64,000 nt of DNA. It comes from Clavulina sp. PMI_390 (Eukaryota > Basidiomycota > Agaricomycetes > Cantharellales > Hydnaceae). The stretch is taken from the NCBI GenBank assembly GCA_015039315.1, contig WIDE01000003.1:620001-684000 (forward strand), in the 5' to 3' direction. The translations under genes were made by a program, and so were the position numbers. Positions 15,509 to 39,608 of this stretch are shown one piece after another. The notes under the pieces were generated by a model. It ran no database searches. It saw nothing but the letters and a program-made list of their open reading frames with translations, and was not told where the DNA came from. Position 1 is the stretch's first letter. Every line of letters starts with the position of its first letter.

Positions 15509-16749
15509 ACAGAGCTCATTGATTTCTCTGTTCTCACCCTTCGTTGCTTTCCTATTGCTGATACCGAAATATTCGCTCCTGGCGTGCATTTAATTTCTTT
15601 CTTTGGGGTTCTCAGTTCGTGCTCGCAAGATTTTCGAATGTCCTAGTCTAGATGTGGTACTGGTACCTTCTCACCTTGCTGGATTGACGATAATACATTC
15701 ATTTCGATTGCCGGGGGCTCTTCAGCCACAGATTCGTTAGATATTGTTGAGATCAAATATCCGTGTTAGTCCAACAAAACTTGAGGGTGCCGAAGGAGTG
15801 GTCGAAAACGGGCCAGGCTGGTGTAACAACGTCACGGTGACGACTCCCACGGTTCAAGACTGGTCTTCTGGCCTTTGCAAGCTGCCTCGCTCTGGTTCAT
15901 TCCTCCTGTTATCACCTACCAGCCCGGCTTCTCCTTACCGTATCATAGTCAAAATATTCAATTGCCGTGTCTATCACTGAAGAATTACCCGCAACTGGGA
16001 TCGGGCTAGGTCAACTGAACTCTCCAAAACACAAACTCTCCGCAGCTTCGAATCCTCCCAAACAGTTACCGTGGAGTGCATTTCTTCCCTGAATTGAATG
16101 GATAGACTCTTCATCGTCTTCCCGCTCTGGGATTGAGCGCGTAATGTTCCAGCATCCTCGTGCTACTCCCAGCAGCTTCCATCTGTAATTACTGGAATAA
16201 TCGATTTGCCGCTAGGAAGCCAGGATTCTCCAACGCGTACCGTCTTCATCAATGGCCCTGGATATCAAGCCCCTTAGTGTTCCTAATTGTGCAGCACGCG
16301 GTTGATTGTCAATTGGAAATTGATCATACCGCCGACGTCCAAGATCGTCGCTAGACCCATCAATCTCCTGACCTAGAAGCTAACTACCTAGGTGGAGCAA
16401 AGCCGCCCGCAAAACAAGCAACATATTTGCTCCATGTGGACTGCTAATCCAGCGTGTGACGCATCGAGGCTACCCCAAATTTGATCAATACCAACTATTG
16501 ATGAAACACTCTGATGACTCCCTCGATGCCGACATGTGCCTCGGTCCTCGATACCACTTCCCTCATCTCCACCTCGCGTCATGCGTCGGAGGTCAAACCG
16601 ATCAGGCGCTCCACCCACATCTCTAGTATAAAAGCGATACCTCCCCGTTATGCCAAGAGCCAAGCTTCACTATCCCTTATAGCTCGGTTCGTATTCGACC
16701 TCATCACTGCGTTACTGACAACCCTAACCGTTTTTATCCAGGCTTTATC
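15509..16749 (+). promoter_or_regulatory. Intergenic region with TATA box for the secreted beta-rich protein
   Basis: The 1,241 bases between GH5 copy 1 and the next gene contain the 3' end of copy 1 and, at 16627-16634, a TATAAAAG box 116 bases before the ATG at 16750. I saw no complete gene or clear repeat in the rest. Confidence 0.5.
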
Positions 16750-17909
16750 ATGGTTGCCTCGTCCATTCTCCGTGCCTCCTTCGTCGTCTTGGGCCTTCTG
16801 GCTCCTGCCCTTGCGGCTCCTGGTGCTCAAAGTGTCCTGACTCCTTACGGTCAACGCCCAAGCGCGAACGTCCACGCTGTTCCAGAGGGTGCGCTCGCTT
16901 TACCCTTCTTGCACCCGATATTTCCCAGCTCTCGCTGACGTTGACTGACGGTTGGACTTGATTCGCTTTTAGGTGGTGAGGTCCGCCACGTTGGGGACGA
17001 GGTTCACCTTGTCGATGCCACTGGAAACGTGCTTCACGTTGCCCAGAACGACGGGACCAAGGTCCGCGCGCAGCCTACACCCGCCTCTGATGCCGCGGAG
17101 GCTCTTGCTACTGGTTGGATTGCTTATGCCTCATGTGAGCACTTATTTCCATACACTATGTGATCTTGAATTGGTTCACAAGCTAACGATTCGTCGCATC
17201 TCGATTGGTCCCCCTTCCCTTTTTTTCTCTGTTCCTCCTTCGTATCACCCCGTATTGCTGGCCAACATAGGGTCCAACACTGGCTCATCCCCCATCAGCT
17301 CGTTCACAACGACCTGGAAGGTGCCTGCCATCCCCGCCAAGGATGATGGCCAGACCCTCTTCACGTTCAACTCCATCGAGCCTGCCTCTGGAAACGCCAT
17401 CCTTCAACCAGTGCTCCAGTACGGTCCTTCCGCTGCTGGTGGAGGCAAGTATTACGCTGTTGCATCTTGGTACCTTGTTGGTAGCAACGTGAGCCTCTGC
17501 CGTTTCCGTCTCATATCTCAGTTACTCATCCACTTGCGCTATGTAGACCTACTACACTACCCCCGTTAAGGTCGCCGTTGGTGATACCCTCGACGGAAAA
17601 ATCACGCTCACCAGCTCCTCTGGCTCGTCGTACAACTACAACAGCGTCTTCACCAACATCAGCGGAACCTCCCTCGCGGCCAAGGGGTCTGCTGAGCTCA
17701 CTTGGGCGACCGAGACTCTCGAGGTCTACAGCATCGCCAGCACGAGTGACTTCCCCACCGGCTCGACCGTCTTCTCCAGCATCAACTTGAAGACCAAGGC
17801 TGGCACCCCTAGCGTCACATGGAGCGCCAAGAGCTCGAGCGCAGATGGTGTTACCACCACCGTCAACACTCAGGGTGCGACGAACGCCAAGATCACTATC
17901 AAATACTAG
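16750..17909 (+). CDS. Secreted beta-rich protein, concanavalin A-like fold suspected
   Basis: Four exons (16750-16888, 16973-17134, 17271-17488, 17547-17909) join in frame to give 293 residues. The N-terminus is a clear signal peptide ending near ALAAPGA. A propeptide-like stretch follows, then a domain of alternating short hydrophobic strands with features such as TTTWKVPAIP, LFTFNSIEP, AILQPVLQYG and YYAVASWYLVG. This strand and motif spacing resembles secreted fungal proteins with a lectin/glucanase-like (concanavalin A) sandwich, including the glutamic-peptidase (G1) superfamily, but I cannot identify a catalytic pair with confidence. There are no cysteines in the mature domain, and the C-terminal half is rich in serine, threonine and valine. 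Its position between two secreted GH5 genes and its own TATA box suggest a strongly expressed extracellular protein. The gene call is firm; the function is open. Confidence 0.85.
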
Positions 17910-19441
17910 GCAGCTGGCATCACGGAGCCCAATACAAGGAGCCAGACCTTTTCATCCATTTTATCTAGTGTATCTGTGTACATTATGATTAAGGGAATGT
18001 GAATAGGTATCAGGAGATTACTTGGTAGATGGGGACTTGAATGTTTGACGCCTGCCGCTTGACCAGCTGTCAGATTCGAGCTGGCGAGACGTGTATTTGC
18101 CTCAATGCGACGAGATACTGAGTTCCACAGCAACTGCCGACTTGGCTTGAAGTGTTGAAGAGTGTTCAGAGGATGACTCTCCAATAATGTGACTAGATCT
18201 CCTTATGAAGTTTGCACGCCCTCGCTACTATAGCTGACGCAGTTTCTCAAAAGCCTCTTCATTCAATTGGTGCTGGAGGTGAAAAGGTATGTCGATAGTC
18301 TGGTGTTGGGCGCTTGCCGCCGCCACTGAGAGACTCGTGATGCATAACTTGAAATGAGCGCTCACTCGTGGTCATAAACTCATGGCAAGATGATTCTGCA
18401 AAAATCCCTCAAATTTTTCATCTTTGAGCTGGAGCCCATCTTACTATCCTGGAAAGACTTCGCCCTTGACCTCGTGCTGCCGTGGGGATTCCCTGATGAC
18501 GGAAGGACCGGCCAGCCTGAGTTGGTTTCCATTCGGTGTATATTCCAGTCGTCACTGAGAAGGGAGCGCAATACCACGCTCGAGAGGTCCGTTCATGCTC
18601 TGCCAGGTCCCTCAATATATGTTTCTATGGTCAATGATCAAACATCAATACTAAGCTAGTATAATGAGAGCCAGGCTTGCCAGCGAGAGCATTTATCGGG
18701 CTAGCCACAGCCGCTATTGCTCATACCCTGCGTCCTCTTCCGCATGTATCGCGTCGGACCTCTCGCCGTGGATTTGCCTTTGCAAGGGAGGTTGACGATA
18801 AACCCATAAACACGAGTTACCAACTCCTGCCACCTTTTGAGTCACCCCCGTAAACTCTGAATCAGGACAGGGCTCAAAAGTCTTGAGCCCCCTATAAATC
18901 CACTGGCTCTCTGTTGCTGAGGCCGCTACAACGTCTATGGTCTTTCTGTCGATCCGTCTTGGAATGGCACTCCTCCTGAGTCATAGCATTAAGGCCGGGG
19001 GAACAATTTACCATATCTTCGTTCGGGTAGGGACTATAGGTTGTAGTAGTGATCATCCCCCTCGCAACAAATTGGATCAGTGTCTTGGCACTCCGGCGGC
19101 GGCGCCAGAGTAATGATTTGACATGGAATTGAGTATGAATCAGCGGAACCTTGTGGTGCTAATACATTGACCTCGATTGTCAGTGGCCGAGACTTGAGGA
19201 TTCTCCTTGACCTTGAAGGATTGAGCATCCACTCCGGCCGATCATGTTTGCCAAGCTGATGTTGCCTGTCCGCTTATAAGGTCCAAACCCCTCTCTTCCT
19301 CACTTTCCCCCCAAGACCTTTCAGCATCATATAGCCTCGAACGGGCTCCCACTTTCATTGTGTTCCTCGTCACTCTCTTGAGAACTATTTAGCGCTCTTT
19401 ACATCCTCTTCCTACTCCTTTGCCTAACCTCTTCACCAAGT
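17910..19441 (+). promoter_or_regulatory. Upstream region of GH5 copy 2, duplicated before copy 3
   Basis: No gene is seen. From about 18300 to the ATG this region is clearly related to 22620-23743. Shared landmarks are a tgcaaaaatcc/aaatttttcat block, a ctgatgacggaagga block, a cattaagg-ccggg block, a ggcggcggcgcca block and CTCCGGCCGATCAT followed by a TATAAG/TATAAA box (19275-19280 here). These conserved blocks are the best candidates for regulatory elements common to copies 2 and 3. Confidence 0.55.
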
Positions 19442-21540
19442 ATGCTCCTTAGCACCCTTGCCCAGATATTGACCGTGTCTACCGCCGCTCTTGCTGCCCA
19501 TGGGAATCAAAAACGTCGTCACGGTCATGGACACCGTAGCTTGGGTATGAACATGGGTGGTCTCCAAAGGTTGAGGAATACCACCCTCGTTGATCGCGAT
19601 CTGTTCCCTACCAGCGGCATCCATGGCGTAAACTTGGGCTCCTGGTTCGTTTTCGGTACGGAAGATATATTCTTGTATCCTATTACCGTGGTGGGCACAA
19701 CTGACATGTCTCTCGTTCCCAAGAGCCGTACATGGCTGTGAATGAATGGACCTCCATGGTATGAGTAATCCTGGCTCGTATCCCAACCACGGCCTCATAA
19801 CATCTTCCTGATAGGGTGGTGATGGCCTCTGTAACGACTGCACGCAGTGCGTCAACGACGAATATCGACTCACTGCTCGTCTTGGCCAGAGTGCTGCAAA
19901 CACTGCATTCGCCAAGCATTGGTCGACTTTCATCACCCAGAGCGACGCCAACCAGATGGTGTCCTACGGCATCAACTCTGTGAGCTGTTCCATCCAATCT
20001 TCTTGTCACTGCTGCCTAAATAGGGTCCCAAACGCCATATAGGTGCGCATCCCTATCGGCTTCTGGATCATTGAATCGACTGTCAATTCTGGCGAGACCT
20101 ATCCTCAAGGTGGCCTAGCGTACCTGGTAGGATCTATCATAAGATATATGTCACGCTATGGATTACGACTCATATTATTCCCCATTTGCAGCGCAAAGGT
20201 TGTGCGATGCTGAAGGCGGCTGGTATCTCCGTTCTTCTTGATTTCCACGCCGCTCCTGGTGCCCAGACCGCTTCCAACCCTTTCACTGGACATTGCGTTA
20301 GCACTCCTGGCTTCTGGACCCAGGCAAATGTGAGTCTAAGATGCCATGGCTTCCCTATTGCCGCGTTCTAATCTACCTACCTTGGGATTTAAAGTTCAAT
20401 CGCCTGAACGCCGCCGTTTCCGCCCTAGTCACCATCGTTCATAATGAGCCCCAGAACTTTGGCTCGGTCTGGGGTATCGAGGCTCTCAATGGTAAGGACT
20501 TTGCACCTAGAGTCCATTGTTGACGGTTGATGTTTCCGTTTCTCAGAGCCACCCACTGATGGTTCACAGACCCCGGGTTACTACACATTCATGACCCAAT
20601 TTGTTGCCGCCGTTCGTAATGCCGAGAGTGCCCTTGGTATTTCGTCTGCCAACCAACTTTCGACCACTTTCATGGATGTTTCCTGGTAAGACGTCTCCAG
20701 TCACATCAAGTCACACTCGTGGCTGACGCGATGGTTCAGGCAATGGCAAAACAACGCAGGAAACCCGGCCTACATCGCCAATGGAGGAAATGCTTACGAT
20801 TCCCACTTGTACTACTCGTTCGGCGCGGTAAGCTCAGAACATGTTCTTGTCTGACGCGACTGAACCAATCATCCACTTCTAGCCTTGCGGTCCTAACGGC
20901 TGCGTCTCTGCAACGCTTGCCTCGCATGTGAGCTTTGCATGTTCCGCAGGTGGTGGGCGCGCACAGTCAGATGCATCGCAGTACAACACTCCTTCCTTCC
21001 TTGGAGAGTGGTGGCTTGAGCCTCTGTCCGGAACTTTCAGTTACACTGACCAAGCATCTGTGCGCGCATTTGGCGACGCCCAAAAGCGAGGATACTCGCC
21101 AGAGGGAGGGAACGGCGGCCATGGGTGGTATTTCTGGAGCTGGAAAATGACCAACTCTGATTCGGATGGAAGCAACCATATGCGTTCTTACAAGGATGCT
21201 GTTTCCCAGGGCTGTGAGTATCTTCGCCATGAACCTTTGCGTCCTCTTCTGGCTGAATTAATAAATTTCCTTCTCTAGATCTCCCTTCCACCGCCTCTTC
21301 TTATTACAACAGCGCCATTTGTGGTTGATACGATTGACCGCCAAATCCTCTCCCGCTCTTGTAAGGCGTTGTCCAATTGCTTCTCTGCTATATATTTCTC
21401 TTTGGGAACACTGGAAATGTATTTAATTGCTCTTTGTATGGTAACTACATTGCCGTCCCCTTGTCTATCTATATATCCACTTACTGTTGTATGCCCCCTA
21501 TGTGAGCAATGTTCGGCCCCAGGTTACCGCCATGATCGTG
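18300..21540 (+). repeat. Tandem segmental duplication, unit A (contains GH5 copy 2)
   Basis: This unit pairs with 22620-25890. Homology covers about 1.1 kb of upstream DNA, the whole gene and about 200 bases after the stop (shared acactggaaa/atactggaaa and ccctatgtgagcaat blocks). The edges are estimated by eye. Confidence 0.7.
19442..21328 (+). CDS. Secreted GH5 glucan 1,3-beta-glucosidase-like protein, copy 2
   Basis: This is a paralogue of the genes at 13504 and 23744 with the same order of motifs: signal peptide (MLLSTLAQILTVSTAALAA), Kex2-like KRR, GVNLGSWFVFEPY, GINSVRIPIGFWIIES, LLDFHAAPGAQTASNPF, VTIVHNEPQNFGSVWGIEALNEPP, MDVSWQWQNNAGNPAY and FLGEWWLEPLSGTF. Both catalytic glutamates (NEP and GEW) are present and the acid/base Glu codon is again split by an intron (G/AG). 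Tryptophan-rich GWYFWSWKMTNSDSDGSNHM near the C-terminus is shared by all copies. It ends NSAICG-stop. It has no intron just before YNTPSF, where copy 3 has one. A signal peptide and a TATA-like promoter support secretion and regulated expression, possibly in wall remodelling. Confidence 0.92.
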
Positions 21541-23743
21541 AGTATCAGGATTGCTGCAACATTGTGGACGAAAAACCCATGGATAACAAGATATAATCTA
21601 TGATTACTATCTATGAAATTATGAGCAAGCAGCTTCCTTACTATGTATATTCTACAACAAAAATATCGCCCCTGAAGACCCCTCGTCATCTTCAGGTGCG
21701 CTGAGACATAATTCTAGCCCAGCTTTTTCACATGCCCTCTGGCCAATAGCTATTTCACCTCGGGTTCAAAATTGAGATGGATATTATATATACTTACTTA
21801 TGCGGACCAGCTAAGAAGCTCCTTGCTTACGATGCCTTTCCCATTCCCTCGCATTTACACAAGTCTATTATTAGGCCTGAGCATGAGACCCGCGCGTTAG
21901 TCTTTCGTTGGGATCGGAATTGATGCTCAGAGCACAAGGAAGAGATCATAAAACAGCACTCCAATATGATTAGTAGCTATATCACTGGCGATAGGTTGTG
22001 GAACGAACCTGAATAGCTACAGGTGCAATAGAGTCGGCCATCCTCCACCAGATTTCCGAGTTCGATCCATGGTCCACAGTACGAAGTGGGCATTGATCCA
22101 TGTATCTTCTCATGCGATTGATAACGTATCGGCAGTGATATATCAATGATGGGACAGAGCGAGAGCACAGGTACCGTTGGTTTGGCTGAGCCCTAAACAA
22201 GTATTTAGGCCCCCTTGTCCCCATTTATCCGGTCTAATGTCTGCAATCGGTGTTGGGAGATCCGTTAGGGTCGGGAGGAGCTTCGAAATCGAACGGTACA
22301 TGGAGGCTAGCGGTGTGTCGCTATACCAGTGAGCGGTTCGAAATGATGAAAGGTGAGGCTTGTGTTGATGACAGGGTGATCTTGCTCTAAGTGCACTATT
22401 TGACTTATGCTGAGGTCTCGGTATGCCTTCATCAGCGAAGAAAGCGAAGACGGCGGTGGTCAGACTCGGATCACCGGCGAGTTTAAATTTCCTTTGTGAA
22501 AATCGACTGCTCTCTCTGCTATGCTACTAGCTGGAGCTGTATATCCAAATCGTCATTGTTTCGATCTGGAGCACTATCGAGATTCAACTACGGCATTTTC
22601 TGAGAAAAGTGCACGCATGATCGGGATTCGGGCGCTCGCCGCCGCTACCATAGCATGACCAAGTGCTCGCTCAGCGACATCAACCTAATTATCTCAAGAC
22701 AATTATGCAAAAATCCCGCAAATTTTTCATTTTTGTGCCCAGTACACGACGTGCTATTTTGGGAGCACTTCTCCGAACCCATGCTTTGTGGTGATTTGCA
22801 CTGATGACGGAAGGAATGACCAGGCTGACTAGTCTTTCATTCGGTTGACATTCTTGTCTTCACTAGGAAGAGACCGCAATACTACGCCCAAGATGCCCGT
22901 TCATGCTTTGCCAGGTCCCTCAATAATTGTTGATATGGTCAATTATCAAACCTCAATCTAAAGCTATCACGAGCGTAGGGCTCGTTAGCCATAGCATTTA
23001 ACGGGATAACTACAGCCGCCATTGCTCTTGCCCTGGGTCCTGCTCCCGTAGGAATCGCTTCGGATCTCTCGCCGCAGTAGCAATGGACTAGGGTCGAGAA
23101 CCTATTGACACGAGTTACCAAGCCCCGAACATGTCACCGGTTTCGGAGTCACCCTAATCAGCATAAATAAGTACCGCTAGTGAGAATATCACTCCGTCTA
23201 TGGTTGCTTAGTGCCCAGGTTGCTACGTTGACTGGGGCGTTTCTCTCGATTTATCCACGAAAGACGCTCCTCCTGAGTCATAACATTAAGGTCGGGAGAA
23301 CATTCTACCATATCTCCTTCGGGTAGGGACCGCAGCTTAAAGTGCTGATCATCCCCTTCGCAACAATTTGGATCAGTATCTTGGTTGGCACCCGGGCGGC
23401 GGCGCCATGTTAATAATATTGATCTTGATTCGAGTATGAATTAGCGAATCCTTGTGGTGCTTATACCTTGGCTTCGAATGCCAGAAACCGAGGCTTGAGG
23501 TATCACATTGACATGGGGGTTGGGCGTCCGCTCCGGCCGATCATAGTCACCAGCCAATATAGCCTACCTACTTATAAAGTCTTACCCTCCCCCTCTAACC
23601 TTTCCCCCCTAGACCTTCAGCGTCGTGAAATCCCTCTTCCCCAGTCCTCATCGGACTCCCACTCTCACTTTGTCCCTGGCCACTCTTTTTCATAACAACG
23701 TTCCTTGCCTCTCCCAAACACTCTTTCATCCTAAATTAGGAAA
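21329..23743 (+). promoter_or_regulatory. Intergenic region between GH5 copies 2 and 3
   Basis: This 2.4 kb stretch has no recognisable gene. The first ~200 bases match the 3' flank of copy 3. The part from about 22620 on matches the upstream region of copy 2 and includes CTCCGGCCGATCAT (about 23531) and a TATAAA box (23573-23578) some 165 bases before the ATG. The middle (21700-22600) is single copy as far as I can see, AT-rich, and may contain decayed sequence. Confidence 0.5.
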
Positions 23744-25890
23744 ATGCTCTTTAGCACCCTCGCCCAGGTATTGACCGTAGCTACGGCCGCCTTCGCTGCC
23801 CATGGTAATCACAAACGCCGTCATGGCCATGGGACACGAAGTGTGGGGATGAACATGAATGGCCTCCAGCGTCTGAAGAACACCACTCTCGTTAATCGCG
23901 ACCTCTTCCCTACAAACGGGATCCATGGCGTGAATTTGGGTGCTTGGTTTGTTTTTGGTAAGCACCTTTGTGATAATTTTATTATTATGACGTGGAAATA
24001 GATTGAAACCTCTCCCGTTCTTCAGAGCCATACATGGCAGTTGATGAATGGACCTCCATGGTGCGAGGATCTCGGAGTAGTATGTGTAAAATAATGGACT
24101 CATAGTTTCCCCTCCATAGGGTGGCGATGGTCTCTGCAGTGACTGCACTCAGTGCGTCAATGACGAATATCAGCTCACTGCCCGACTTGGACAGAGTGCT
24201 GCGAACACCGCGTTCGCCAAGCATTGGTCAACTTTCATCACTCAGAGCGACGTCGACCTAATGGTGTCCTACGGAATTAACTCAGTGAATCACTTATGTT
24301 TCTTTTTGAAGTAAATCGCTGAACTGACCTGACAAACGCTAAATAGGTGCGCATCCCGATTGGCTTTTGGATCATTGAATCGACCGTCAATGCGGGCGAA
24401 ACTTACCCTCAGGGTGGCCTCGCGTATCTAGTGAGATTATTTCGATGCGGGAAATACCTCTTGGAACTCATGATTTTACTTTATTTTAGCGCTCAGGCTG
24501 CGCCATGCTGAAGAATGCTGGCATCTCTGTTCTGCTCGATTTCCACGCTGCCCCTGGCGCCCAGACAGCTTCCAACCCCTTCACTGGACACTGTGTTAGC
24601 ACCCCCGGCTTCTGGACTCAGTCTAATGTGAGTGAAAAGCGTGATATTCTATTGTTTGCTGCATTTCCTTAAATTTTGGCACCACAGTTTGATCGTATGA
24701 ACGCCGCCGTGTCTGCTTTGGTCACCATCGTTCATAACGAGCCTCAAAACTTCGGCTCAGTGTGGGGTATTGAGGCACTCAATGGTAAAGAGTTTTCATC
24801 TATGTTTTATATTGGTGGCTGAGATGTTTGTTCTTCAGAGCCACCCACCGATGGTTCCCAGACTCCCGGGTATTACACATACATGACCCAATTCGTTGCC
24901 GCCGTTCGTAATGCGGAGAGTGCTCTTGGAATTTCTTCCGCTAATCAGCTTTCAGCCACTTTCATGGACGTTTCCTGGTGAGAGTGCTCTGCCCACGTAA
25001 GGCTACACTTGCGACTGATAATCTGTTTGAGGCAATGGGAAAACAATGCTGGAAATCCAGCTTATACTGAGAATGGAGGAAATGCGTACGATTCGCACTT
25101 GTACTACTCTTTCGGCGCGGTGAGTGGCGTGTATCCCTGTTTGACATTGTTGGAGGCTGAATCCACACGGCTCTTAGCCTTGCGGTTCTACTGGCTGCGT
25201 CACTGATACCCTCGCCTCGCATGTGAGCTTTGCCTGTGAAGCAGGAGGGGGTCGTGCAGAATCGGATGCCGTGAGTCCATGAATCAATCCGCCTCAAATC
25301 ATTACTTACATGGGCCGCGTTCTACAGCAACAATACAACACCCCTTCCTTCCTTGGAGAGTGGTGGCTTGAACCACTCTCTGGGACATTTGGATATTTCG
25401 ATCAAGCTTCTGTTCGTGCGTTTGGCGACGCTCAAAAGCGAGGATACTCGCCAGAGGGAGGAAACGGAGGCTATGGGTGGTACTTCTGGAGCTGGAAAAT
25501 GACGAATTCAGACGCAGACGGAAGCAACCATATGAGGTCGTACAAGGATGCTGTTTCTCAAGGCTGTGAGTGTTTCTATTCCAAATATGTCCGCTTCGCT
25601 CCAGCTAAACCATTACAAACTTTGTTCTATAGATCTTCCTTCCCCCGCCTCCTCCTATTATAACAGTGCTATTTGTAGTTGATGGATTAGACCTGAGCCA
25701 TCCTTTGTGCATACAGAACATCAATCAACTATTTCTGTGCTGTCTCCCTCTCTCTAGGAGATACTGGAAACGTATGTACTTGTTCACAATGTCGTGACTA
25801 CATTGTTATCTCTTATCTATATATAACCACTCATTGTTGTATGTTCCCTATGTGAGCAATATTCTGTCCCAGCTTCCTACCAGAACGGTA
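22620..25890 (+). repeat. Tandem segmental duplication, unit B (contains GH5 copy 3)
   Basis: Partner of the unit at 18300-21540, with start-to-start spacing of the two genes of 4,302 bases. Promoter blocks, exons, intron positions and 3' flank correspond; introns and flanks are clearly more diverged than exons. Edges are estimated by eye. Confidence 0.7.
23744..25682 (+). CDS. Secreted GH5 glucan 1,3-beta-glucosidase-like protein, copy 3
   Basis: This is the closest relative of the gene at 19442. It has a signal peptide (MLFSTLAQVLTVATAAFAA), a KRR processing site, GVNLGAWFVFEPY, RIPIGFWIIESTVNAGE, LLDFHAAPGAQTASNPF, GSVWGIEALNEPP with its Glu codon split by an intron, MDVSWQWENNAGNPAY, FLGEWWLEPLSGTF and the tryptophan-rich C-terminal block, and it ends NSAICS-stop. 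It has one intron the other two copies lack: 25271-25327 (57 bases, GTGAGT...CAG) between ESDA and QQYNTP. Without splicing, that segment would hit an in-frame TGA, so the intron is required. Catalytic residues are intact, so it should be active and secreted. Confidence 0.92.
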
Positions 25891-26161: not shown

Positions 26162-28662
26162 CTACTTCTTGTGTGTTTTCGCGTGCCTCTGCATTGTACC
26201 TGACTGCGCAAACTTTTTACCACAACCGTCCACGGGGCATGTGAAGGCTAGATCAGCACCAAATAATTTAGATCGTTAGAGCTACAAGAAACGAGACAAA
26301 GAGATATAATGACTCACGCTTTTCTCCCGTGTGCGTTCGCATATGATCAGCCAACTTTGATCGACCCCCAAATGACTTGTCGCACCCTGGCCAAGTACAT
26401 GGGAAACCTGAATTGTACTAGTTATGCCTTGGCAAGGAGCTTGTGTGAAAACGATACAACTTACTCGCTGCATGTAATTCAGGTATTAGTGGAGGCACCA
26501 ATTACAAAACATTCGAAAGTACAAACCTTGTTCTCCATTATGCTGTGCTACATGATACCTTAGGGTATGCGAACTGGCATATGAGCGTCCGCAGCCTTCC
26601 ACAGTACATTTGTAGGCTAAACCCAAATCCAAGTAAGGTTAATGTAGTCGTAATGAGAGATTCTGCACACTTACGCTGCAGTTTCGGATGGTTCTTCACA
26701 TGCTTATCCCTGTCGCACTCCTGCGAGAATGTTCGACCACAAATGTCGCATTTGAAGGCTAGTCATCCGGCATCCATGAGTTCACACTATCCACTCAAAC
26801 GCCAGGCGCAGTAGGTAGTAAGGACTCACGCTTTTCTCCCGTATGTTTTCGCATATGCCTGGCTAATTTTCCCGGTTCAGGGAATGACCATTCGCAACCA
26901 GGCCATGTACACGAGTAGGCTGATTCGGCGGTAATTATTTCAATGTGGAGGGCGCAGCGGTAAGGGCTTAACTTACTGTCTATAGATCAAGACCATCTGT
27001 GTGTGAGCCTGTGTGTTTAACAAATGGCATGGGAGCACGCACCTTTTGCTCCGTTATGCTTGGCCACATGCTTTTTGAGACGCTCTGGTCTGGTAAACGC
27101 GCGACTGCATCCTTCCCAGGTACATTTGAAGGCTAAATCGATGCGAAACAAATTAGATCATAATATAAATAAATGAGACCCAGACATCGAAAGAGAATAA
27201 CGCACGCCTTTCCTTTGTATGCCTTAGCATGTGATCTCTTACCTTCCCTCGGCTCCTAAAAGACTTGTCGCAGCCATCCCACGTGCACTTGAAGGCTTTT
27301 TTTTTTTTTTTTTTTTTTTCAGCTTAGGGCTCAATTATCACGTAAAGAGATCACTCACGCTTGATTCCCTTGTGTATCTTCATGTGGTTACTGAGGTGCT
27401 TCCTAGCTCTGAATGTCTTGTCACAACCGGGCCAATCGCACTCATAAGCTGGATCAACAACAATGACGTGAGCCCAGAGCCACAAAGGCAAGCCAAAAAC
27501 AAAAAACTCACGCCTCTCTCCCGTGTGGGTTCGCACATGATTAGCTAGATCCCAGGCTGTCACACATGCCCGATCGCAGCCCGGCCAGGTACATAGGAAT
27601 GCTGTTTGTGCAACAATAAGTCCTCGACTAGCAACAACCTGTGCAAGATACTGTACTCACATTTTTCTCCTTTGTGTCGCTTCAAGTGAACCTTCAAATT
27701 GGCATTCCACGCAAATGACTTATTGCATCCCGGCCAAGAGCATTTGAAAGCTAAAAAAAAGTTTATGGAACGGAAGGGATATGGGGAGAAGCAGGGAGAA
27801 CTCACGTCTCTCGCCTGTATGCTTTCGCATGTGCGAATTCAGGGCGCTTTTGCTTACGCAGGCGCGGTCACACCCAGGCCAATCACACTTGAATGCTAGC
27901 CCAAATGCAGAGTTAGACGGCACAGCCGAATGCACGCGAGAGGAAACAGAGCATACGCCGAATTTGCTCATGAACGTATCTAACATGAAGGCGTAATGTC
28001 CCAGGTTGCTGAAATTCCCTGCCGCAACCCTCGAGAGAACAATTGTAGCCTGATTTGGGGTTACAGTGATCAGTTCGAAGGAGAAACAGACGAATTATAG
28101 TGATACTTACGTCGGATGCCAAGATGTACAAACTCGGTATGACAGACCAAGGCCCAATTAGCCGTTGTGCAAAAATCACAATATTCGCACTTGAATGCTG
28201 CAAATCTGCGTTAGCACACCCATCATGTAATATTTGGAAACAACATACGCCTCAGCCCTAGATGAATATTCCTAAAATGTTTACTACGGGATGAGGGATA
28301 AGAAAAAGTTTTATCACAGCCAGAGCATGAATATGCTGCAGGTGGTACAGGTTTAGTTAGCAGCGGATGACGCAGTAATAATACGTCGACTCACCTTGAC
28401 AGTTCTCATGGAAATCGCGGATATGGATGGTGCAGCTGGACTTGCGTGTGTATACCCGTGGGCAATCAGGATACGGGCACTTGTGTGGTACAGCTGCCAA
28501 GTGATTACGCTTATCTGCATCCCTCTGTCCTTGATGCTTGAGCTGAAAATCGCCCCCGCTGACAGGTTCATATCGCCAGAAGCGATCAGACTGATCAGTC
28601 AGTAAGGTTTGCACCTCACACCGAAAACAGTCATAGACACGCAAGTAGGCGACCACCGACGA
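26162..28662 (-). repeat. Zinc-finger exon array (one C2H2 finger per exon, 15 fingers)
   Basis: In transcription order the exons are 28395-28662 (finger 1 with a helical lead-in), 28249-28335, 28111-28197, 27957-28049, 27806-27895, 27661-27750, 27512-27601, 27359-27448, 27206-27295, 27043-27132, 26830-26919, 26675-26758, 26527-26616, 26318-26407 and 26162-26247. Nine of the ten exons for fingers 5-14 are exactly 90 bases; the finger-12 exon (26675-26758) is 84. Every internal intron (51-123 bases) is phase 1 and cuts the inter-finger linker, so canonical linkers such as HTGEKPF and HTGERPY appear only after splicing. Most fingers have the form CxWPGCDxxF...L..HM..HTGE. The last ends THKK-stop. 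Confidence 0.88.
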
Positions 28663-31600
28663 CTGGAAGGGACGGCGCACATTCGATGGTCGTCATTGAA
28701 TGATCGCGCGATGCGAATAAGAGGTTTAAGCACCAATGTCGATGACCATTACAAATAAAATATCGTATTGTCAGCTCAGCGAATGTGCGCGGTAGTTATC
28801 ATGAACACAAGGGCCACTCACCATCCAGGACTGCCAACCTCCCAACCGGTAGTGCGGACAAAATCGACTAATGGTCTCAAATATGTCATCGCGACGCATT
28901 GATGCTCCGCCGGGCGAGTGTTGAAGCACGGCAACCGTCAAAAGAGCCAGGTCGTAGAGGGGAGCACTAGCCAACGCATCTTCGTCATCGTCATCAAGAT
29001 CCGTGGCCTGGAGATCCAAAGTATCCTCGTCGCTGTCGTTCAGACTTCCGTGGGGGGTTGGCGCATCTCCTTCGATTGGCGCTGGGTAGAGGTGAGAGGG
29101 GATAGGTGGGATCGACGCGACTGTAGGTTGTCTGATCCGCGAGAGAATACGAATCACACGGCGTAGTATTTGGATCTAGGATCCCTTTATGAGTCAGCTA
29201 TGACCAAGCGAACGGAGGGAAAATACGCACCTGTTGATCGACGCCCTCGATGAAAGGACTAAGATCCATGTCCTTTGATCGTTCCTCCACAGTAGCAACA
29301 ATGAATGATAAATGATCTTGGTCTGAGAGCTTGTCAGCTGTGCTGCTGATTTCTGCACATGTATATTCCAGAATCAAGAGCTTGTGCATGCAGAGGTACG
29401 TGTAGCGCTCGCCGAGGATCAGTATTCGGGAACTGTACTTCCAGCATCCTGGATGGTCAAACGGGAAAACGATGCAGAACCGCCCCAAGGACAAGCGGAC
29501 CACGAATGGCTTGACGGGTGATTTTTTGCTCGACCAGTAACCTAGCTTGCGCGAGCCGACTCTAACTGCGTACCATTGCGATTTTTTCAGAGCTTCCAAA
29601 GCAAGGATAAAGTTCTCATAAATCGGATCACGGAGGAATCGGTCGATGGCTGCATCTGATGGTAAATTGAGCATCCCATCATATAGCAGGGCAGGCAGCT
29701 AGCATTTAGAACGTTATTAGAGTAAGATATAGCGAAAATTAAGATTCCTTACTGCCTTTCCCCAAGAGGCTAAATATTTGGGGTGGTACGTGTGCAGAAC
29801 TGCTGCAAGCCATAGCAGAAGCGGCGCCAGCTCGTCGAACTTGCAGCCAAAGAGTAGGAAATCGATGAAGGCCCCCACTGTCTCTTTAATTTGATCACGA
29901 GTCATCCCTTCGCGGTCTAGTCCTTTTGATTTTAGGAGGAGAGTAAAGAACATGCTAGTAATTCGACAAGAAGGTTAGGACTGTTAAGAAGGGAAAGTCA
30001 AGATATCACGTACTACGGGCTGTCCCCCGCATTGTCATCCAGAATATGACTTGCGTTTTCCAGTTCTGCCAGGGTTGGGTCTTTTCCTAGGATAAGGCCC
30101 GTACTCCACCCATCGGGAAGCCAGCCGATAGCCGAGCCTAGCTCTTTGGTTTTCTCCACAAAAACTTTCTTGATTGGTTTATCGGGCCGTGTGGTGTTAT
30201 GGTACTCAGCGAGGCCGTCAACGAGATTGCTGAATCGGGCGACACGGCGCTGAACCTCTTCGTGGCTCGTATCGCGTTTGGGTGGCGGGTATTGTTTACG
30301 AATCTATCTCAAGGGCTCAAAAATATTCCCGTGGATAGTACAGGTGTACAGACACTCACTCGATCGACTACATCGTGCTCGGCTTGAGGCATGTGGTTCG
30401 GAGAGAATTTTCCCAGGGGACGTCCACCAGGCGCCATGTTGAGCGATGCAGGGCCCACAGCATCAATGAGGAACTCTTCAATCCCTCCTGAGAGGGTCAG
30501 CCGTCGCGAAAGTTGGCGATCGAGCCCGCGTAGGCGATATACCCGAACCTGCGCTATATGCTCGAGCAGCTTGAGGACATATATAAGGTGTCGCTGGCGC
30601 CGACTCGATGGTTGGGCCAGCGCCTGATCCTCCGAATGGCGCAAGTGAGCGCCTCGTATCGACCAGCCCGCATAAGAGATCGTAATGAGAGCATTGTCTG
30701 GCTTGTCAGCCATGAGCTCTTGGTATGGTGCCCAGAGATCGGCGCTGACGGGATACTGCTCAATGCACAAAGCGATCACCTTCATGAGCTGCTTCTTGAG
30801 GGCGCGACACGTCCGGAAGTAGTAATCCTGGTGTTCTGGATGAGCGGTGGACTTGTTGACCTCCTCCAAGCTTCGAACGTGATCGTCGGGGTCAATTCCC
30901 AATGGATCGAGGGTAAGGTCGTGGATGAGCTCCGTGGTGCCAGGGAGCAAACTGAGGACTTCGAGGATCTCGGGGTCGACAATCTCTCGCATGGCCTCGT
31001 TTCGGGTCTGATTCAACACATTGAGCCGCTCATCCGAACTCTCGGCATTATGTAGCTGGACGTGTCGCCGGCGCGCCTTTTGCTTCTCTTTCGCGCACCG
31101 TTCATCCCACACTGCAAGGGCTGCTAGTAGCCTCTCTTGACGAGTATCCTCAAAGACATCCGACATCAGCCCTGCAAGGATTTCTTCTCGCGCCTCTTGG
31201 TTCTGAGCGAAAATATCGTCCACCATCTTGTCCTCATCCTCATCCATCAAGGACACGTCGTCTGAAAAATCGTCATCATCTTCGTCCGAGAGTTCTTCTT
31301 CATCCAGAGAGAATTCATCGTCTGTGTCTGAATCGTCGCTTGATTCGGTTTCGTGACCATGAGAAGCACGACCTGACTTGGATTGACGATGTGAGCGAGA
31401 GGGCCGTGATGAAGAGGATGAGGAGGATGAGGAACTGCTTGAAGAGGACTCTGTTGAGGAATCCGAGTCCGAATCATGAGGCTCTGGATTTGGTGGTGGA
31501 GCGGTTCGTTTCGCAGAGCATTTCTGAGGCTGAGACGATCTACGCGGATTCTTGAGGCGGGTAGTAGTGCCGCCAGTCCCAGAACACACATACAAGTCTG

Positions 31601-34600
31601 TCGAGACTTGAGGATTGTTCTGCTCCGTTCGACGGTAAATAGCCAGTGACACGTTCTCAGGGATCGAGGTTTGATATGGATCCTCTGGGACGATGGGGGC
31701 CGAGGGGTTGGATATCGCAACTGAACGGGCGTCATCTTTGAATGTGAGACTGTCGCCATCGCACACCACAGCTGTGTAGTGCCCGCCCCCTAGATCCTCG
31801 CCATGGTGATACGCAAACCCGACGAGTTCCCAAATCTCCTAAAATGAATAATAGTGGTGTGAGTAGACATAATAACAGGAATGGTGTCTGAACCCTACCT
31901 CTGGGGGTATCTCGGTTTCTCCGTCGAGCAAAACAGTCCGTCGAATGACTCGATTTATGCGGACAGGTGCTGTAGATTTGACACCCGTCTCGCCCCGACG
32001 AAGACCCATAATGAGTAGAGGCGAATCGAAAGATACGACCCGGTCTGGCTCTGCCTGTTTGGCGTAATAATCGCACTCGCAGACGCGTTCGTTGATTCGA
32101 ACGATAGCTCGAGGTCTCCTCAACCATTCTTCTAGCAGGTCACTTGTGCTGGTCGGTGACGTGCGGGGAACAATGGTGTAGAGTGAAGGCACACCTGTCT
32201 GGACGTATGGGCCACAGCGCTTGCACTGTTGTGAGGACTTCATCGTCGCTGTTGGGAGACGCAGGACGTGTAGCAGTGTATCAACAAAGTCGCAAACGTC
32301 GTGCTGCGCGGTCAGCGACCACTCGAGGCCAAGAGCTAGGCTCGCAACGCGGAACGCTTCCATGAATGTGCCAAATTGGCGGTCGATGATGGAGCTGAGG
32401 GCATTCTGGGCCATGGAAGCAAAGAGCTCTCTCAAAGATACTCGCACTGGATCATCGCTCTTATCGAGTTCGAGGTGCTCGGCAACGGGGCGTAGGCTCT
32501 GCACTCCACTAATAGCGTAGCACTTATTCCCAGTATTACGAATGCCGCCCGTGGACGGGCCAACGGTCTTGGAGGGCTTGGAAGGAGCTGAGTGACGGCG
32601 CGAGCGAGTTGGCGGAGGATTAGGAGGGAGAGCTGGCTTTGACGAGGTTGTAGTCGAAGGGGCGAGGGCAGGGGCTTGAGTGAGCGATTTTATAGGCCTT
32701 TGAACTTGCTCAGCTTGAGCGTCAGTCTTCTCGAGGGATGACTTGATAGAGGTCCCGGCACGATGGGTCTGGGTGGCCGGCGAGCTGGTGGACTCTGGCT
32801 CTTGTACTAGTTCATACAGAGCTAAACCAACAATCTCGGACGCTCTGTCATCCAAAAAGGTTGTGTCGTCCTGGGGCTCATCAAGCTCGGTTCGTTCGTG
32901 ATCATTGAAATGCCACCATGCGTTGCCATGTCGGACTGCAGTGGTCCAGTGACCTGCTTCCGGATCAGACGGCAGATTCGGATTAGGATGGCCCAATGTG
33001 AATCCTCTCAGTGCCCAGACCTAAAAATGTTGGCATCATCAGTATGCGCGCAACTATTATACTCCCAGTTCAAGCTGACCTTCTCCCCTCGATCGAGGGT
33101 CTGAATACGAATCACGGGGTTGAGATGGATAGACGTAAAGTCTCGGCCATGTAAACCCTCCTTGATCCATGTGTTTCGCGTGATGCCAATGGGGAGAAAA
33201 CGGCCAAAGCGCGAGGGGTTGAACGTCACAGGCTTGGCTGTCCCAGATGCCACTTCTTGTTGGTGGTGGGGGCAGAGTTCGTCAGGAACAACTCCCTCAA
33301 CAAACTCCCAATTCTCGACGGAGAGGCTTCGATCTACAACATCTTGGAAGCTGTGCACAACAACTGCTTTTGATGCGTCGTCCCTAGTGGCACTTCGAAT
33401 GCTAGAAGCATAACGCCGAGCCAGAGGTCTCCGCTCGCTGCTCGTGCATTGTGCACATATCGCAGATTCGAGCACAAATGGCGCCGACGGCTGAGAAAGT
33501 TGCATCCCTATTGCAGAGTAGAGGAACTCTAGGAATTCATGGGCATCATGCATGAGTGCCCAGTCCCAGCTCTTCTCATCGCGCAAAAAGCGCATGGATT
33601 CAATCAAAGGAGTCGGATCCACAGGGCCAGTGAGGACAGGGTCGATCATTTCTCGCAAAATTCGATTTAGCACACATCCTGTGCGGTTTGGTGTGCCATT
33701 TCGATCGAGGCTGAACCTTTCACAGTCGTGGTGACGACTGAGGCGATCCCACATGGGCAAAGCTAGCTGTAATGGAGCATTGACGAAGCAATTGGCTCCA
33801 AAGTTGAGAATGCCACGCGCCGGACCTAGTCGCGCAAGCTCCTCTGCAGAGGGTCGACAGCTTCCTGGATTGCCAAGGACAGGTGGTGGAGAAGAGGATC
33901 TTGAGGGAGGGGGCGAGTGGGGGACAGAGGAGCCTTCACTGTCGCTAGGGTCACCGGGATTACCAGCGTTGGAACTCGCTTGGGGGTCAGGGAGCGGAAC
34001 ATGGTCTGCCTCGGGGCTCCCATGAGGAGAGTTTCCTGAAGACGAAGAGGAGGACGATGGAGTCGTGCCTCCTTCACCATCTCGACGACGCTGGCGTCGA
34101 CGTTTATTGCGCTTACGAACATGAGCAATTTTTTTTTCGCGGCGCTTTTTCTCTCTTTCAAGCTGGGCCCCGGACAATGCACCACTTCCTTCGTGTTGGT
34201 TTATTTGGTCGGGGCTCAGTGGCCGTCGCACGCGCTTGCTGCGCTGGCTGTTACGATGTCGAGTGGAATGATTTTGTTGTTTCTCCTCATCTGGGTGCGC
34301 TGTCGTTTGCTGAGAGGGTGGATTGGGGGTGCGTGACGAGCCGGGACCAGACTGAGCGGAAGACGCGCTAAGAGTAGCAGCAGAACGCCCAGAGGCTTTT
34401 GAGAGTCGTGGAGAGGAAGGAATAGGTGAAGCCGGTGGGCTATCAACCCTTCGCCGATTAGGCTTGGGCTTCTTTTGGGCTTGCCGGCGTTTCTGTGGTT
34501 TCTTCCAGTCGGGATCTGACAAGGGAGGCTCGTCAATGGGCTGGTCTTCGGCATCATTGTTCGCAAGCACTCCAAATTTGTTTGGCGACACGACAGACGC

Positions 34601-37021
34601 TGTGATGTTTGTTGATGAGCGACGGCCCTCCAGAGTTACGCTGGTGGCTGTAATCAGGAAAGCATCCTAGTTAGCCAAACGTCTAAACACCCGTTAGTAC
34701 ACCTCGAGCTCACTTGGCACATCAGCCTTTGGTGCCGGGGTGCGGGAAGCATCGACACGTCGACGCTTGACAGCGTTTTTGTCTGCACGTCATATAGAGA
34801 TAAGTAAAGGTATGAATATAGCACAAAGGAAGGGCATACTTGGAGTTGCTGAGAGCGGGCGCTTTGCTTGATCGTGGCCGGGGGGAGACTACAAGAAGCA
34901 CAAGTCTTTGTGAGTTTTTATGCGGGGATCCAGGAAAGATCAAGCAGCTTGGGTACAAACGCGAGCCGTAACATTAGGTTTCGATTCTCGTTTAGTATTC
35001 TTTGAGCTCTTTGAGGCCTTGTCGTCTGTTGGATGGCCTATCCGTAATATGTGGATGAGTCGTCCGAGACCCAGGCAGGATGAGATTATAACGTACCCTG
35101 AGATGCTGCCTTTGGTGGCTTTGCTTCAGGGGAGACAAAACGTTGTCGTTTGGTCGCGTTACCGGTATTAGTAGCTGCAAATGGCGAAGATGTCAGATAT
35201 CAGGGTTCTGGTGTGGGGAGGCAAAATTCTAGCTTACATGGTGTCGTTGGCGGCGGCCGTTTCGTGTTCTTCTTTTCGGCCTGCGGGACAAATATGAGCT
35301 AAGAGAAAGGGCGTAACTGGTGGACGCTGATACGTACCGCTCGCGGAAGCGTTGAACGATTTGGGGCCGGTTTCTTAGGAGAAGCAGACGGCTCGGTTGT
35401 TTTCTTCGTCGCTTTCGTTCCTGAAAAGGGAGACCCTACCGATGTCAGACGGATTAAAAGAGACCATAGTGTGCTTCCATACCTTGAGAGTTTTTTGCAG
35501 CCGACAATGGAGCAGTAGTCGATGCGGGCGGTTGGATGTTGGGTCCGTCTTGACGGCGAACAGGCTTGGACTCTGGGCGGGGGACGGCGCGAGTTTCTGC
35601 GGGGAAATTTGCAGGGCGAATCGCGGGCCCTCTGACAACTCTCGAGGCTGGCAGTCCCGTCACACCTGCTCTCGGGAGTGGGGGACTCGGAGTCGGTCGA
35701 TACTTCTGGGGCATGGGCAATGCGCCGTAAAGGGACATCTTCTTGGCAGGAGATCCATGAAGCTTGGCTTTCGACCAGTGAGAAGCTTGCCAAAGATCAT
35801 CGCCATCCCGTGGCGCATGTTCTCCCGCGAGTGGTTTAGAACCTAAAGCCGCTAGGCATTGCGCTTTAGTGAAGACATCTAAAATTATTATGAACGCAGT
35901 ATACATACCGTGACTTGCTTCGCGTGAAGGTGTCGTTGCCTGTCAATAAGGCGTTATGAATGGTGGTGTATAGGAATAGAAAGCGAATAATACACACAAG
36001 TGGAGGGAATGGGTTCGACAGTGGAGACTCTCCTCGAGGAGGTCGCGGAGGGGCGTCCGAGGCAGGAGGAGCCTGACTGGATCTCTCTCGACCATCTAGG
36101 ATCATGGCACGCTCGATTTAGAACCTGATTCGTTGACTTTTGCGAATGTACTCACAGTTTTGGAGCTTTTGGCTCGCTGGTGTCTGAGGGATTCTGGCGT
36201 TGGCCAACGGTGACGGCGTATTAGGGCGCGAGAAAGAGCCTTCTGTTGACAGGCTGAATTGTCGGCGATGATGTTGTTCACCAAGCGCTGAGAGGGCAGC
36301 AATGATCAGGATGTATAAGGGCGCTTGCGGGATAGAGAGAGCTCACGTTTATGCGGTTGCGCATTTCCTGTGGTGATATGAGGCTGGTTAGTACCTTTGG
36401 CCGGAGGCACAGTCGCTATCGAATGGCCCCTCAATGTGAGAAGGTGTATCAAAACATCGTCAGAGTGTCAAACATACTTGGAGTAGTCAAAAAATAGCGT
36501 TTTGTGGCAAATGGCTAGAAGGATCCATGTAGCGAGAAGGTGCTGAGAATAGATATGAAAGTGCGCGGCACACCTGCGCAGAGGACGGTTGATTAGACCT
36601 TGAGGTGTCACTGTCGTCACTTGTGAGGTCGAATACTGGAGCCTTGACTGAACAGGATGTGCCCCAGGAGTCGGGTGTTTAGTTCGAACAATACCCAATT
36701 TTATGGAAAGGCTCAGAAGGCTCACGTTTTGGGATCAGCGGGCGCTTTTTGGGCTCCTCATCACTGTCGTTGGTGAGGTCAATAGTTTGTTGGCGCAACG
36801 AGGCGCTCCGAGTCGGTTGGTCCTCTTCCTCACTGTCATCAATGATCGTGATGCTCGGAGGCACGACGCGCGAAGTTGGTTGATCCGCATCTGAGGGCGG
36901 GGGATCGAGTCAGAATAGGACCGAACATTTGGGAAGTACGAGAGCGCGCACCTCGATGGTTGGGGGGCGGTTGCTGGTCGGAGGCACCGCGTCCAGCGGC
37001 ATTTTGAGGTTTCTTTGGCAT
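26162..37021 (-). CDS. Giant fusion: SUMO-binding motifs, two USP domains, GIY-YIG-like segment, 15 C2H2 fingers
   Basis: I traced this gene exon by exon. The ATG at 37021 opens a 70-base exon; 36726-36890 and 36599-36647 follow in phase and carry three SIM-like motifs (ITIIDDSEEED, TIDLTNDSDEE, VFDLTSDDSDTS). Small basic/proline-rich exons fill 36.5-34.7 kb and are the least certain part. Main exons are 33080-34647, 31899-33020, 30360-31838, 30014-30303, 29753-29954, 29231-29698, 28822-29175, 28395-28662, then fourteen finger exons; all phases agree over about 2,330 codons. USP core 1 has Cys box GILNFGANCF (Cys at 33788-33790) and His box EAGHWTTAV (His at 32949-32951). USP core 2 has GIRNTGNKCY (Cys 32520-32522) and GGGHYTAVV (His 31779-31781). 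An acidic/serine tract is followed by ISYAGWSIRGAHLRHSED and GIEEFLIDAVGPASLN, like a GIY-YIG nuclease. It would act in the nucleus, removing ubiquitin-like tags at DNA sites. Automatic annotation might split it near 28.7 and 31.8 kb. Confidence 0.72.
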
Positions 37022-38799: not shown

Positions 38800-39002
38800 C
38801 TTTAAGAAGGATTACGCCGTTGAGATGCAAGAGACAGTCAAAAGCGCGTGGGCATTCTCCGATGTCAACAGCTGTCAACAGTCCTCAGTTATGGCGTCTC
38901 AGCTTCGGTTCAACCAACATAGGGGGGCCGATTGACGCAGCGATGACCTAGATGCCCTTGTGACAGAGGAAAACGTTTCAACCAACTGACGCAGTACCAT
39001 AG

Positions 39003-39355
39003 GCACAATACAACACCCCCTCGTTCTTGGGCGAGTGGTGGCTCGAGCCGCTCTCTGGCACGTTCGGCTACTTTGACCAAGCGTCTGTGCGTACGTTTGG
39101 TGATGCACAGAAGAGGGGCTACTCGCCTGAGGGAGGAAATGGAGGTTACGGATGGTATTTCTGGAGCTGGAAGATGACAAACTCTGACTCAGATGGCAGC
39201 AACCATATGCGTTCATACAAGGATGCTGTCTCGCAGGGTTGTGAGTGTTTTTACTCTTAAATATGCAATTTGGTCTGGCTAAATTGGTTTCAATCGTATC
39301 TACAGATCTTCCCTCTACTGCTTCTTCTTACTACAACAGTGCTGTTTGTAGTTGA
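39003..39355 (+). pseudogene. Truncated fourth GH5 gene: last two exons only
   Basis: This segment encodes the C-terminal part of the GH5 proteins found at 13.5-25.7 kb. It starts exactly at an exon border (an AG at 39001-39002, then codons for AQYNTPSFLGEWW), continues through the GEW nucleophile motif and GGNGGYGWYFWSWKMTNSDSD, uses the same final intron (about 39242-39305) and ends NSAVCS-stop. No promoter, signal peptide or NEP-bearing exon precedes it, so it cannot make an enzyme alone. The reading frame and splice sites are undamaged and its protein is almost identical to copies 2 and 3, although its codons differ at many third positions. It was therefore under selection long after separating from them and was truncated late. 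It lies 13 kb from copy 3, beyond the giant gene. Confidence 0.85.
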
Positions 39356-39608
39356 GGGACACGGCCATCAAATTGTGCCTTCAACTGCAGCAATTTTCCG
39401 ATCCCTTTCCCTGCTACCTGTCTCACTTATCGGAAAAGCCCTTTTACTTCACAATTCTTCCAGGGCCCATATTGCCATTCTCTCGTATTATTGTCGTGTA
39501 CATATTTGCTCGTTTCCAGTTGCTCGGTGCACCTTTCTGCGTGCGATGTTTGGTTCTATTGAATTGTTTTGTGACATTCGCGTCCGAACCTGTCACGCTC
39601 ATCCCAAC

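Follow-up and report, generated by a model that had tools for sequence, protein, structure and literature searches.

The closest described arrangement to the one reported here is found in fungal mitochondria, where mobile open reading frames (ORFs) in Allomyces atp6 and in Glomus atp6, atp9, cox2, and nad3 have inserted and attached a foreign C terminus and displaced the native one, the DNA being diverged and the protein conserved (PMC3630166). The ORF between the two ends is of the LAGLIDADG or GIY-YIG type in the cases set out there, and Glomus atp9 has a GIY-YIG enzyme (PMC3630166). The present analysis concerns a giant gene in the genome of the agaricomycete Clavulina sp. PMI_390 (Cantharellales; 39.4 Mb, 301 contigs), located on the minus strand of a 64,000-nucleotide stretch of contig WIDE01000003.1 (positions 620,001 to 684,000, hereafter the window). 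It joins two USP (deubiquitinase) domains, a GIY-YIG-like block, a forkhead-like domain, and 15 C2H2 zinc fingers, and we suggest, at a probability of about 0.4, that it may work as a nuclear homing-type selfish gene, with the finger array choosing the host gene. This reading was drawn from the layout of the flanking ends, which resembles that of the mitochondrial mobile ORFs: an endonuclease-type gene lies between diverged copies of a 3′ end, and the attached copy keeps the host gene whole (PMC3630166). Unlike those ORFs, the giant gene is nuclear (on a contig of >680 kb), has spliceosomal-type introns, encodes >2,300 amino acids with USP, forkhead, and C2H2 domains, lies in variable orientation, and is a candidate only for nuclease activity, for mobility, and for a foreign attached end.

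Four other systems bear comparison. The nuclease LEM-3/ANKLE1 is likewise a large eukaryotic protein with one nuclease block, and the spacing of its second Tyr, His, Glu, and Asn is almost identical to that in the window copy; the window product differs from it in that the parts scanned contain neither ankyrin nor LEM domains, that none of the profiles used recognises a GIY-YIG sequence, and that the candidate first Tyr is 49 rather than 33 residues upstream (PMC10287932). In Ustilago maydis, a GIY-YIG-type gene of mitochondrial origin also sits in the nucleus of a fungus, inside another gene, but that insertion is recent, apparently inactive, and retains mitochondrial codon use, whereas the giant gene family is spliced, diverged, and without a PF01541 match (PMC7593156 for the Ustilago insertion). 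The USP domains resemble peptidase C19 (PF00443) in their nearly complete profile and retained Cys and His boxes and depart from typical USPs in occurring twice per protein, from separate lineages, and in their fusion with DNA-binding and nuclease-like domains. Like the giant gene, fungal DNA transposons such as KDZ are multi-copy; the giant gene differs in that no long terminal inverted repeats were found in the window and no transposase domain in the parts scanned.

Structure of the giant gene

Rebuilt by translation and splicing, the minus strand of the window from 34647 to 26162 gives 22 exons and 2,331 codons with zero stops, and all 21 introns (51-159 nt) have GT-AG ends. The exon-end phases run 0, 0, 0, 2, 0, 0, 0 and thereafter 1 through to the last finger exon, every internal boundary from exon 8 onward being of phase 1. 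An earlier reading of the stretch, made from the sequence only, had held that these exons agree in splice sites and phase over about 2,330 codons, and the rebuilt gene bears this out, with neither stops nor frameshifts at the junctions. The encoded domains follow the order of two USP domains, the GIY-YIG-like block, a conserved stretch that we name MID (between that block and the forkhead; no Pfam match), the forkhead-like domain, and the 15 fingers. The analysis confirms a single gene joining these parts, and the one-gene model is independently backed by paralogues on contigs C113, C280, and C204 (C-numbers denote contigs of the Clavulina genome), which repeat the domain order and the intron phases over the shared domains. 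That four paralogues in one genome share the order means that the join is not a chance one. An Rfam search returned no RNA.

Both USP cores proposed in the sequence-only reading lie above the Pfam UCH cut-off (23.9 bits) on the spliced product, USP1 at 42.4 bits over 240 of the 254 profile positions and USP2 at 36.9 bits over 233. Single exons score lower (28.8 bits for the first; 26.6 for the second, taken as a whole exon with two stretches), and this rise on joining exons weakens the view that the parts are separate genes. Read by eye, the Cys box is present in 12 of 12 modules seen and the His box in 11 of 11, and the third position, as aligned, is variously N, D, or K. The domains are predicted to remove ubiquitin. 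A USP tree groups window USP1 with C113 (support 100/99) and USP2 with C280, C204, and C27 (98/98); an origin of the pair by local duplication was rejected, as the tree places them in two separate lineages. Among three places on C275, the ratio of nonsynonymous to synonymous substitution rates (dN/dS) of the USP part is 0.11-0.14. Sequence matches of the window USPs in the PDB were marginal only.

The forkhead-like domain, absent from the earlier list of domains, extends over exons 7 and 8, and its PF00250 match spans the splice. The score is above the cut-off of 27 bits in C113 (27.7); the window gives 19.1 bits (E 0.0015; 13.4 bits in a longer query), C280 gives 16.0, and C204 gives none. 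The finger count of 15 was recovered by the C2H2 pattern, exon 8 contributing one finger and exons 9-22 one apiece, and the zf-C2H2 profile scores 195.6 bits in 14 stretches, above its cut-off. Finger number is 15, 12, 9, and 9 in the window, C113, C280, and C204, respectively, and the residues at what we take to be the contact positions differ between copies. One finger intron is unusual by eye in its splice acceptor, the acceptor side (27319-27296) being a run of >20 A ending in AG.

No protein family with this domain order was named by any scan made, as the sequence-only reading had anticipated, and no paper describing the combination was identified among the literature matches listed, which is not a claim that none exists.

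A modular family in one genome

Relatives were found at C113, C280, C204, C27, C35, C15, C134, C275 (three tandem places), C247, and C90, giving with the window 13 places on 11 contigs. Not all were seen in full, and at C27, C90, and the third C275 place the USP part alone was seen. The copies on C113, C280, and C204 each have one USP, the GIY-YIG-like block, MID, the forkhead-like domain, and the finger array, and are about 40% identical in the core; for C113 the identity is 39-45% along the frame of exon 34647-33080. Within the stretch searched, C35, C15, and two C275 copies have USP, GIY-YIG-like block, and MID with no finger array, and in C134 and C247 the block and MID were found with no USP alongside. 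Because the USP and finger parts vary among copies, the block together with MID is, by this comparison, the most constant core of the family, with the USP domains (none, one, or two seen) and the DNA-binding parts as modules. The family is old, diverged, modular, and multi-copy.

Modules also seem to have been exchanged between copies, since the USP and block-MID parts of one tandem C275 copy (C275a) have different histories: the tree of the block and MID pairs it with C35 (94/99, just under the mark of the tool), and the USP tree pairs it with its tandem neighbour C275b (100/100). Amino acid identity between these two tandem copies is 92-95% in the USP half and drops to 17-43% beyond it, where the models of the far C-terminal parts are uncertain. 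Downstream of the tandem relatives, a stretch within C275:140001-160000 is again 94% identical at the DNA level.

The expectation that automatic annotation would split such a gene is matched by the C113 relative, which is recorded as a 727-residue hypothetical protein lacking the USP start, the forkhead, and the fingers. In protein database searches, in which the approximately 8,000 candidates sharing most words were scored, an alignment of exon 3 (A1) returned one match, the C113 gene; the full product and its region 1100-1720 found no relative, and a broad alignment (A2) found none and missed the C113 gene too, so that these negatives are not evidence of absence from other fungi. Scans of viral and bacterial contigs with A1 found no relatives.

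The GIY-YIG-like block

Across nine rows of alignment A2, at about 20% identity and up, the invariant residues of the block are E1, Y120, G122, R131, D135, E185, N198, G202, and G203. Five of these nine (Y.G, R, E, and N) are those required by a GIY-YIG nuclease, the signature beyond the ANKLE1 residues being what we assume for the family. Counted from the second Tyr, the window copy has H at +12, E at +65, and N at +78, and the E falls at +60 to +72 across the nine rows. A His follows the Arg in six of the nine, and upstream, 49 residues before the second Tyr, eight of nine have Y.R, which is all that is seen of a first GIY motif. The active residues of human ANKLE1 (Y486, H498, E551, and N565) correspond to +12, +65, and +79 (PMC10287932). 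On these motifs the block is somewhat more probably a true GIY-YIG member than an unrelated domain, and DNA cutting by the giant protein is putative. The segment that the sequence-only reading called GIY-YIG-like keeps Y.G, R, E, and N, invariant in nine of nine, and lacks support from profiles, libraries, or structure, as set out below.

Only one PF01541 match was returned for the whole genome, at C1:511596-511727, and by eye it looks like what we presume to be SLX1.

Duplicated 3′ ends of host genes

In all three testable copies with forkhead and fingers (window, C113, and C280), the gene lies between two diverged copies of the 3′ end of its neighbour, one attached to the complete neighbour and the other an orphan. 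The neighbour in the window belongs to a set of three tandem genes (13529-25875) that are 64-85% identical in DNA by stretch, with downstream sequence in common too. We take these genes to be glucanase-like; the pieces tested gave no Pfam match. The end of the neighbour, apparently two exons, is repeated past the 5′ end of the giant gene, and, judged by eye, the similarity between the two ends sets in at a splice acceptor and is lost a few bases from the stop codon that they share. A gene for a gamma-tubulin complex component (PF17681, PF04130; 39264-41851) comes right after the orphan end.

In C113, the C terminus of a sugar transporter gene (PF00083) is repeated in the same layout, with the match again fading at the stop codon. 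In C280, a GH115 gene (PF15979) has its 3′ half repeated, together with introns and sequence downstream, and an open frame of 542 codons (C280:455592-457217) separates the family member from the complete GH115 gene; this frame is F-box/LRR-like by eye, the F-box label being our assumption.

Attached and orphan ends are 81-88% identical in DNA, with few amino acid changes and no stops in the codons compared. By the Nei-Gojobori method, dN is 0.023 and dS 0.71 in C113 (75 codons), and 0.032 and 0.93 in C280 (six pieces totalling 425 codons). The two window ends show three amino acid differences over 82 codons, a few of which may be intron, and their dS has reached saturation. C27 shows a weaker version, a 30-codon repeat with dN of 0.097 and dS of 0.95. 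The low dN relative to dS, together with the lack of stops in the codons compared, suggests that each orphan end was under selection in a working gene for most of its divergence, until recently, and now stands without the rest of that gene. For the ends at C113 and C280, the genome gave no further DNA match at E <= 0.001, in a search that scored the best candidates only. As a small control confined to the window, a search of the rest of it for duplicates at the protein level (E <= 1e-8) found none apart from the finger exons and the glucanase-like cluster. The comparison of flanks covered the window, C113, C280, C27, C35, and C134; it left out C204, where the contig is too short, and C247 and C90, and C15 and C275 are tandem repeats.

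Homing-type element or host gene family

If the giant gene is of the homing type, the fingers and the forkhead would direct the protein to one particular host gene, at its 3′ coding end, and the GIY-YIG-like block would cut alleles without the element. Repair would then copy the element in together with its silently diverged 3′ end, such that the host gene stays working and the target is lost, and the old 3′ end would be stranded beyond the element as an orphan. The SIM-like motifs (see below) and the USP domains might act on SUMO or ubiquitin marks at the break, or might shield the protein from degradation. The gene, the family, the flanking ends, and their low dN/dS are observed; the cutting, the copying, the identity of the foreign end, and what the USP and SIM-like parts do are the steps that we infer. 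In its full form, in which a finger-guided GIY-YIG-type nuclease with SUMO-binding and deubiquitinating modules enters a host 3′ coding end and restores it from a recoded end that it carries, the array of each lineage being suited to a different host gene (glucanase-like, sugar transporter, or GH115), the scheme is tentative and rather doubtful.

A number of observations weigh against the homing reading. Orientation varies, the C280 gene pointing the opposite way relative to the duplicated ends, with the 542-codon frame between, and the C280 duplicated stretch takes in introns and downstream sequence. C35 and C134 have no duplicated end in flanks of 6.0/8.4 and 5.0/11.5 kb, respectively. The neighbour in the window is already a tandem cluster of three, and C15 and C275 are themselves tandem repeats; the window orphan matches all three tandem genes at 76-79% and could be the relic of a fourth member. 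In the window, the 3′ untranslated region (UTR) is common to the attached end and the next glucanase-like gene but is not shared by the orphan. GC content at third codon positions (GC3) in the window is 0.49 in the attached and 0.62 in the orphan end, against 0.49-0.59 in 5′ frames, not all of them coding; in C113 it is 0.69 and 0.75, against 0.60-0.62 in the 5′ part, and the two C280 ends are alike (0.52 and 0.53). The UTR and GC3 would, if anything, be weak signs that the attached end is the native one. Long terminal inverted repeats are absent from window positions 22-42 kb, where 14 short inverted pairs were found; only one of these (14 nt, at 24137 and 37916) encloses the giant gene, probably by chance.

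The nuclease itself is also in question. PF01541, NCBIfam, PHROGs, and a PDB sequence search gave the block no GIY-YIG support, only stray weak matches in one of nine members each. Alignment with hhalign against eight T4 GIY-YIG proteins and UvrC scored 11.8, with 60 column shuffles reaching 14.5 and the USP, forkhead, and MID alignments 12.3-18.2. The structure model of the block (two sequences) has a mean predicted local distance difference test (pLDDT) score of 39 and is all helical bar stray residues, giving no fold support. Our confidence in the homing reading stays at 0.4 on account of the inconsistent orientation, the two loci without duplicated ends, the signs from UTR and GC3, and a nuclease that is unproven. 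The suggestion in the sequence-only reading that the gene could be the engine of a selfish element is therefore kept in part: it agrees with the multiple copies, the exchange of modules, and the flanking ends at three of three loci, and sits poorly with the variable orientation, C35 and C134, and the GC3 and UTR signs.

Nearly as likely is that the copies form a host family of large DNA-bound deubiquitinases, regulators of transcription or chromatin or agents of genome defence, grown by segmental and tandem duplication, with the flanking ends as remains of tandem clusters; the protein may then be the chromatin ubiquitin/SUMO editor or genome-defence protein that the sequence-only reading also proposed. 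In its favour, the USP modules keep Cys and His (by eye), with the low dN/dS among the C275 copies; there are tandem arrays at C275 and C15 and in the neighbour of the giant gene, C35 and C134 lack duplicated ends, and UTR and GC3 fail to mark the attached ends as foreign. The account is harder to square with the duplicated ends of C113 and C280, for which no other DNA-level match was found, and with the rest of the window, where no protein-level duplicates were found at the threshold given beyond the glucanase-like cluster and finger exons. It also needs, in three of three testable finger-bearing copies, the loss of the 5′ part only of a second gene, the end staying intact in the codons compared. 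A variant in which the block is an unrelated domain that does not cut DNA, leaving a deubiquitinase with DNA-binding domains, similar in logic to other chromatin deubiquitinases, is unlikely. It gains from the lack of support for GIY-YIG in profile hidden Markov models and the PDB and from a structure model too poor to be of use, and it leaves unaccounted for the five of nine invariant residues that fit GIY-YIG needs at about 20% identity, the ANKLE1-like spacing in the window copy, and the persistence of the block in the two copies in which a USP was not found (C134 and C247). That separate neighbouring genes have been wrongly joined is very improbable: the annotation of C113 holds the 727-residue piece only and our model was built from genomic DNA, but order and intron phases recur in the three paralogues at about 40% core identity, USP scores rise on exon joining, and the forkhead match spans a splice.

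Were the homing reading true, the giant gene would be a self-rescuing drive of natural origin, guided by its fingers and at work in the nucleus of a eukaryote, and why such an element needs deubiquitinases would become the question. Were it a host gene instead, it would still join deubiquitinase, nuclease-like block, and DNA-binding arrays, a join that the C113 annotation fragments.

N-terminal region and other features of the window

Upstream of the 22 exons, the N-terminal region up to 37021 is likely, but not certainly, part of the giant gene. The two short motifs found there by scan, which we take to be SIM-like, are the basis for possible SUMO binding by the protein. The exon that carries them weakly matches regions upstream of the C204 (tblastn E 0.004) and C113 (E 0.007) genes. 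Over 36909-35089, seven short blocks, SIM-like acidic stretches included, are collinear with the sequence upstream of the C204 gene (best E 7e-11), and four or five with that upstream of the C113 gene (best E 3e-9), the blocks having been chosen by order from a match list that also contains chance matches. Of the N-terminal exons, only the first two were delimited, by eye. The SIM-like N terminus of the sequence-only reading thus finds agreement in motifs and collinear blocks, and these motifs are short. Coordinates are collected in Table 1.

Table 1. Exons of the giant gene and copies of the duplicated 3′ end in the window
Feature	Position	Strand	Basis and remarks
Probable first exon	36952..37021	-	ATG at 37021, GT donor, phase 1 into next exon; read by eye
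Exon with two SIM-like motifs (near 36852 and 36783)	36726..36890	-	Motif scan and weak tblastn; boundaries by eye
N-terminal low-complexity exons, taken as one stretch	34697..36678	-	Short blocks collinear with C204, several with C113
Exon with most of USP1, Cys box near 33800	33080..34647	-	Splice model, Pfam UCH
Exon with USP1 end (His box) and most of USP2	31899..33020	-	Splice model, Pfam UCH, paralogues
Exon with USP2 end, acidic linker, and GIY-YIG-like block (31031-30360)	30360..31838	-	Splice model; GIY-YIG at motif level only
MID exon 1	30014..30303	-	Splice model and paralogues
MID exon 2	29753..29954	-	Splice model and paralogues
MID exon 3	29231..29698	-	Splice model and paralogues
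Exon with MID end and first part of forkhead-like domain	28822..29175	-	Splice model, Pfam, paralogues
Exon with rest of forkhead-like domain and first C2H2 finger	28395..28662	-	Splice model, Pfam, finger pattern
Fourteen exons (84-93 nt), each with a single C2H2 finger; phase 1 in all internal ones; stop codon at 26162	26162..28335	-	Splice model, Pfam, finger pattern
Attached 3′ coding end of complete glucanase-like neighbour	25319..25686	+	DNA match; match to next tandem copy runs 22695-25875
Orphan copy of glucanase-like 3′ coding end, far side of giant gene	38994..39359	+	DNA match; stop codon by eye

Elsewhere in the window, a dynamin-family gene, MGM1-like, is located at 60810-62495.

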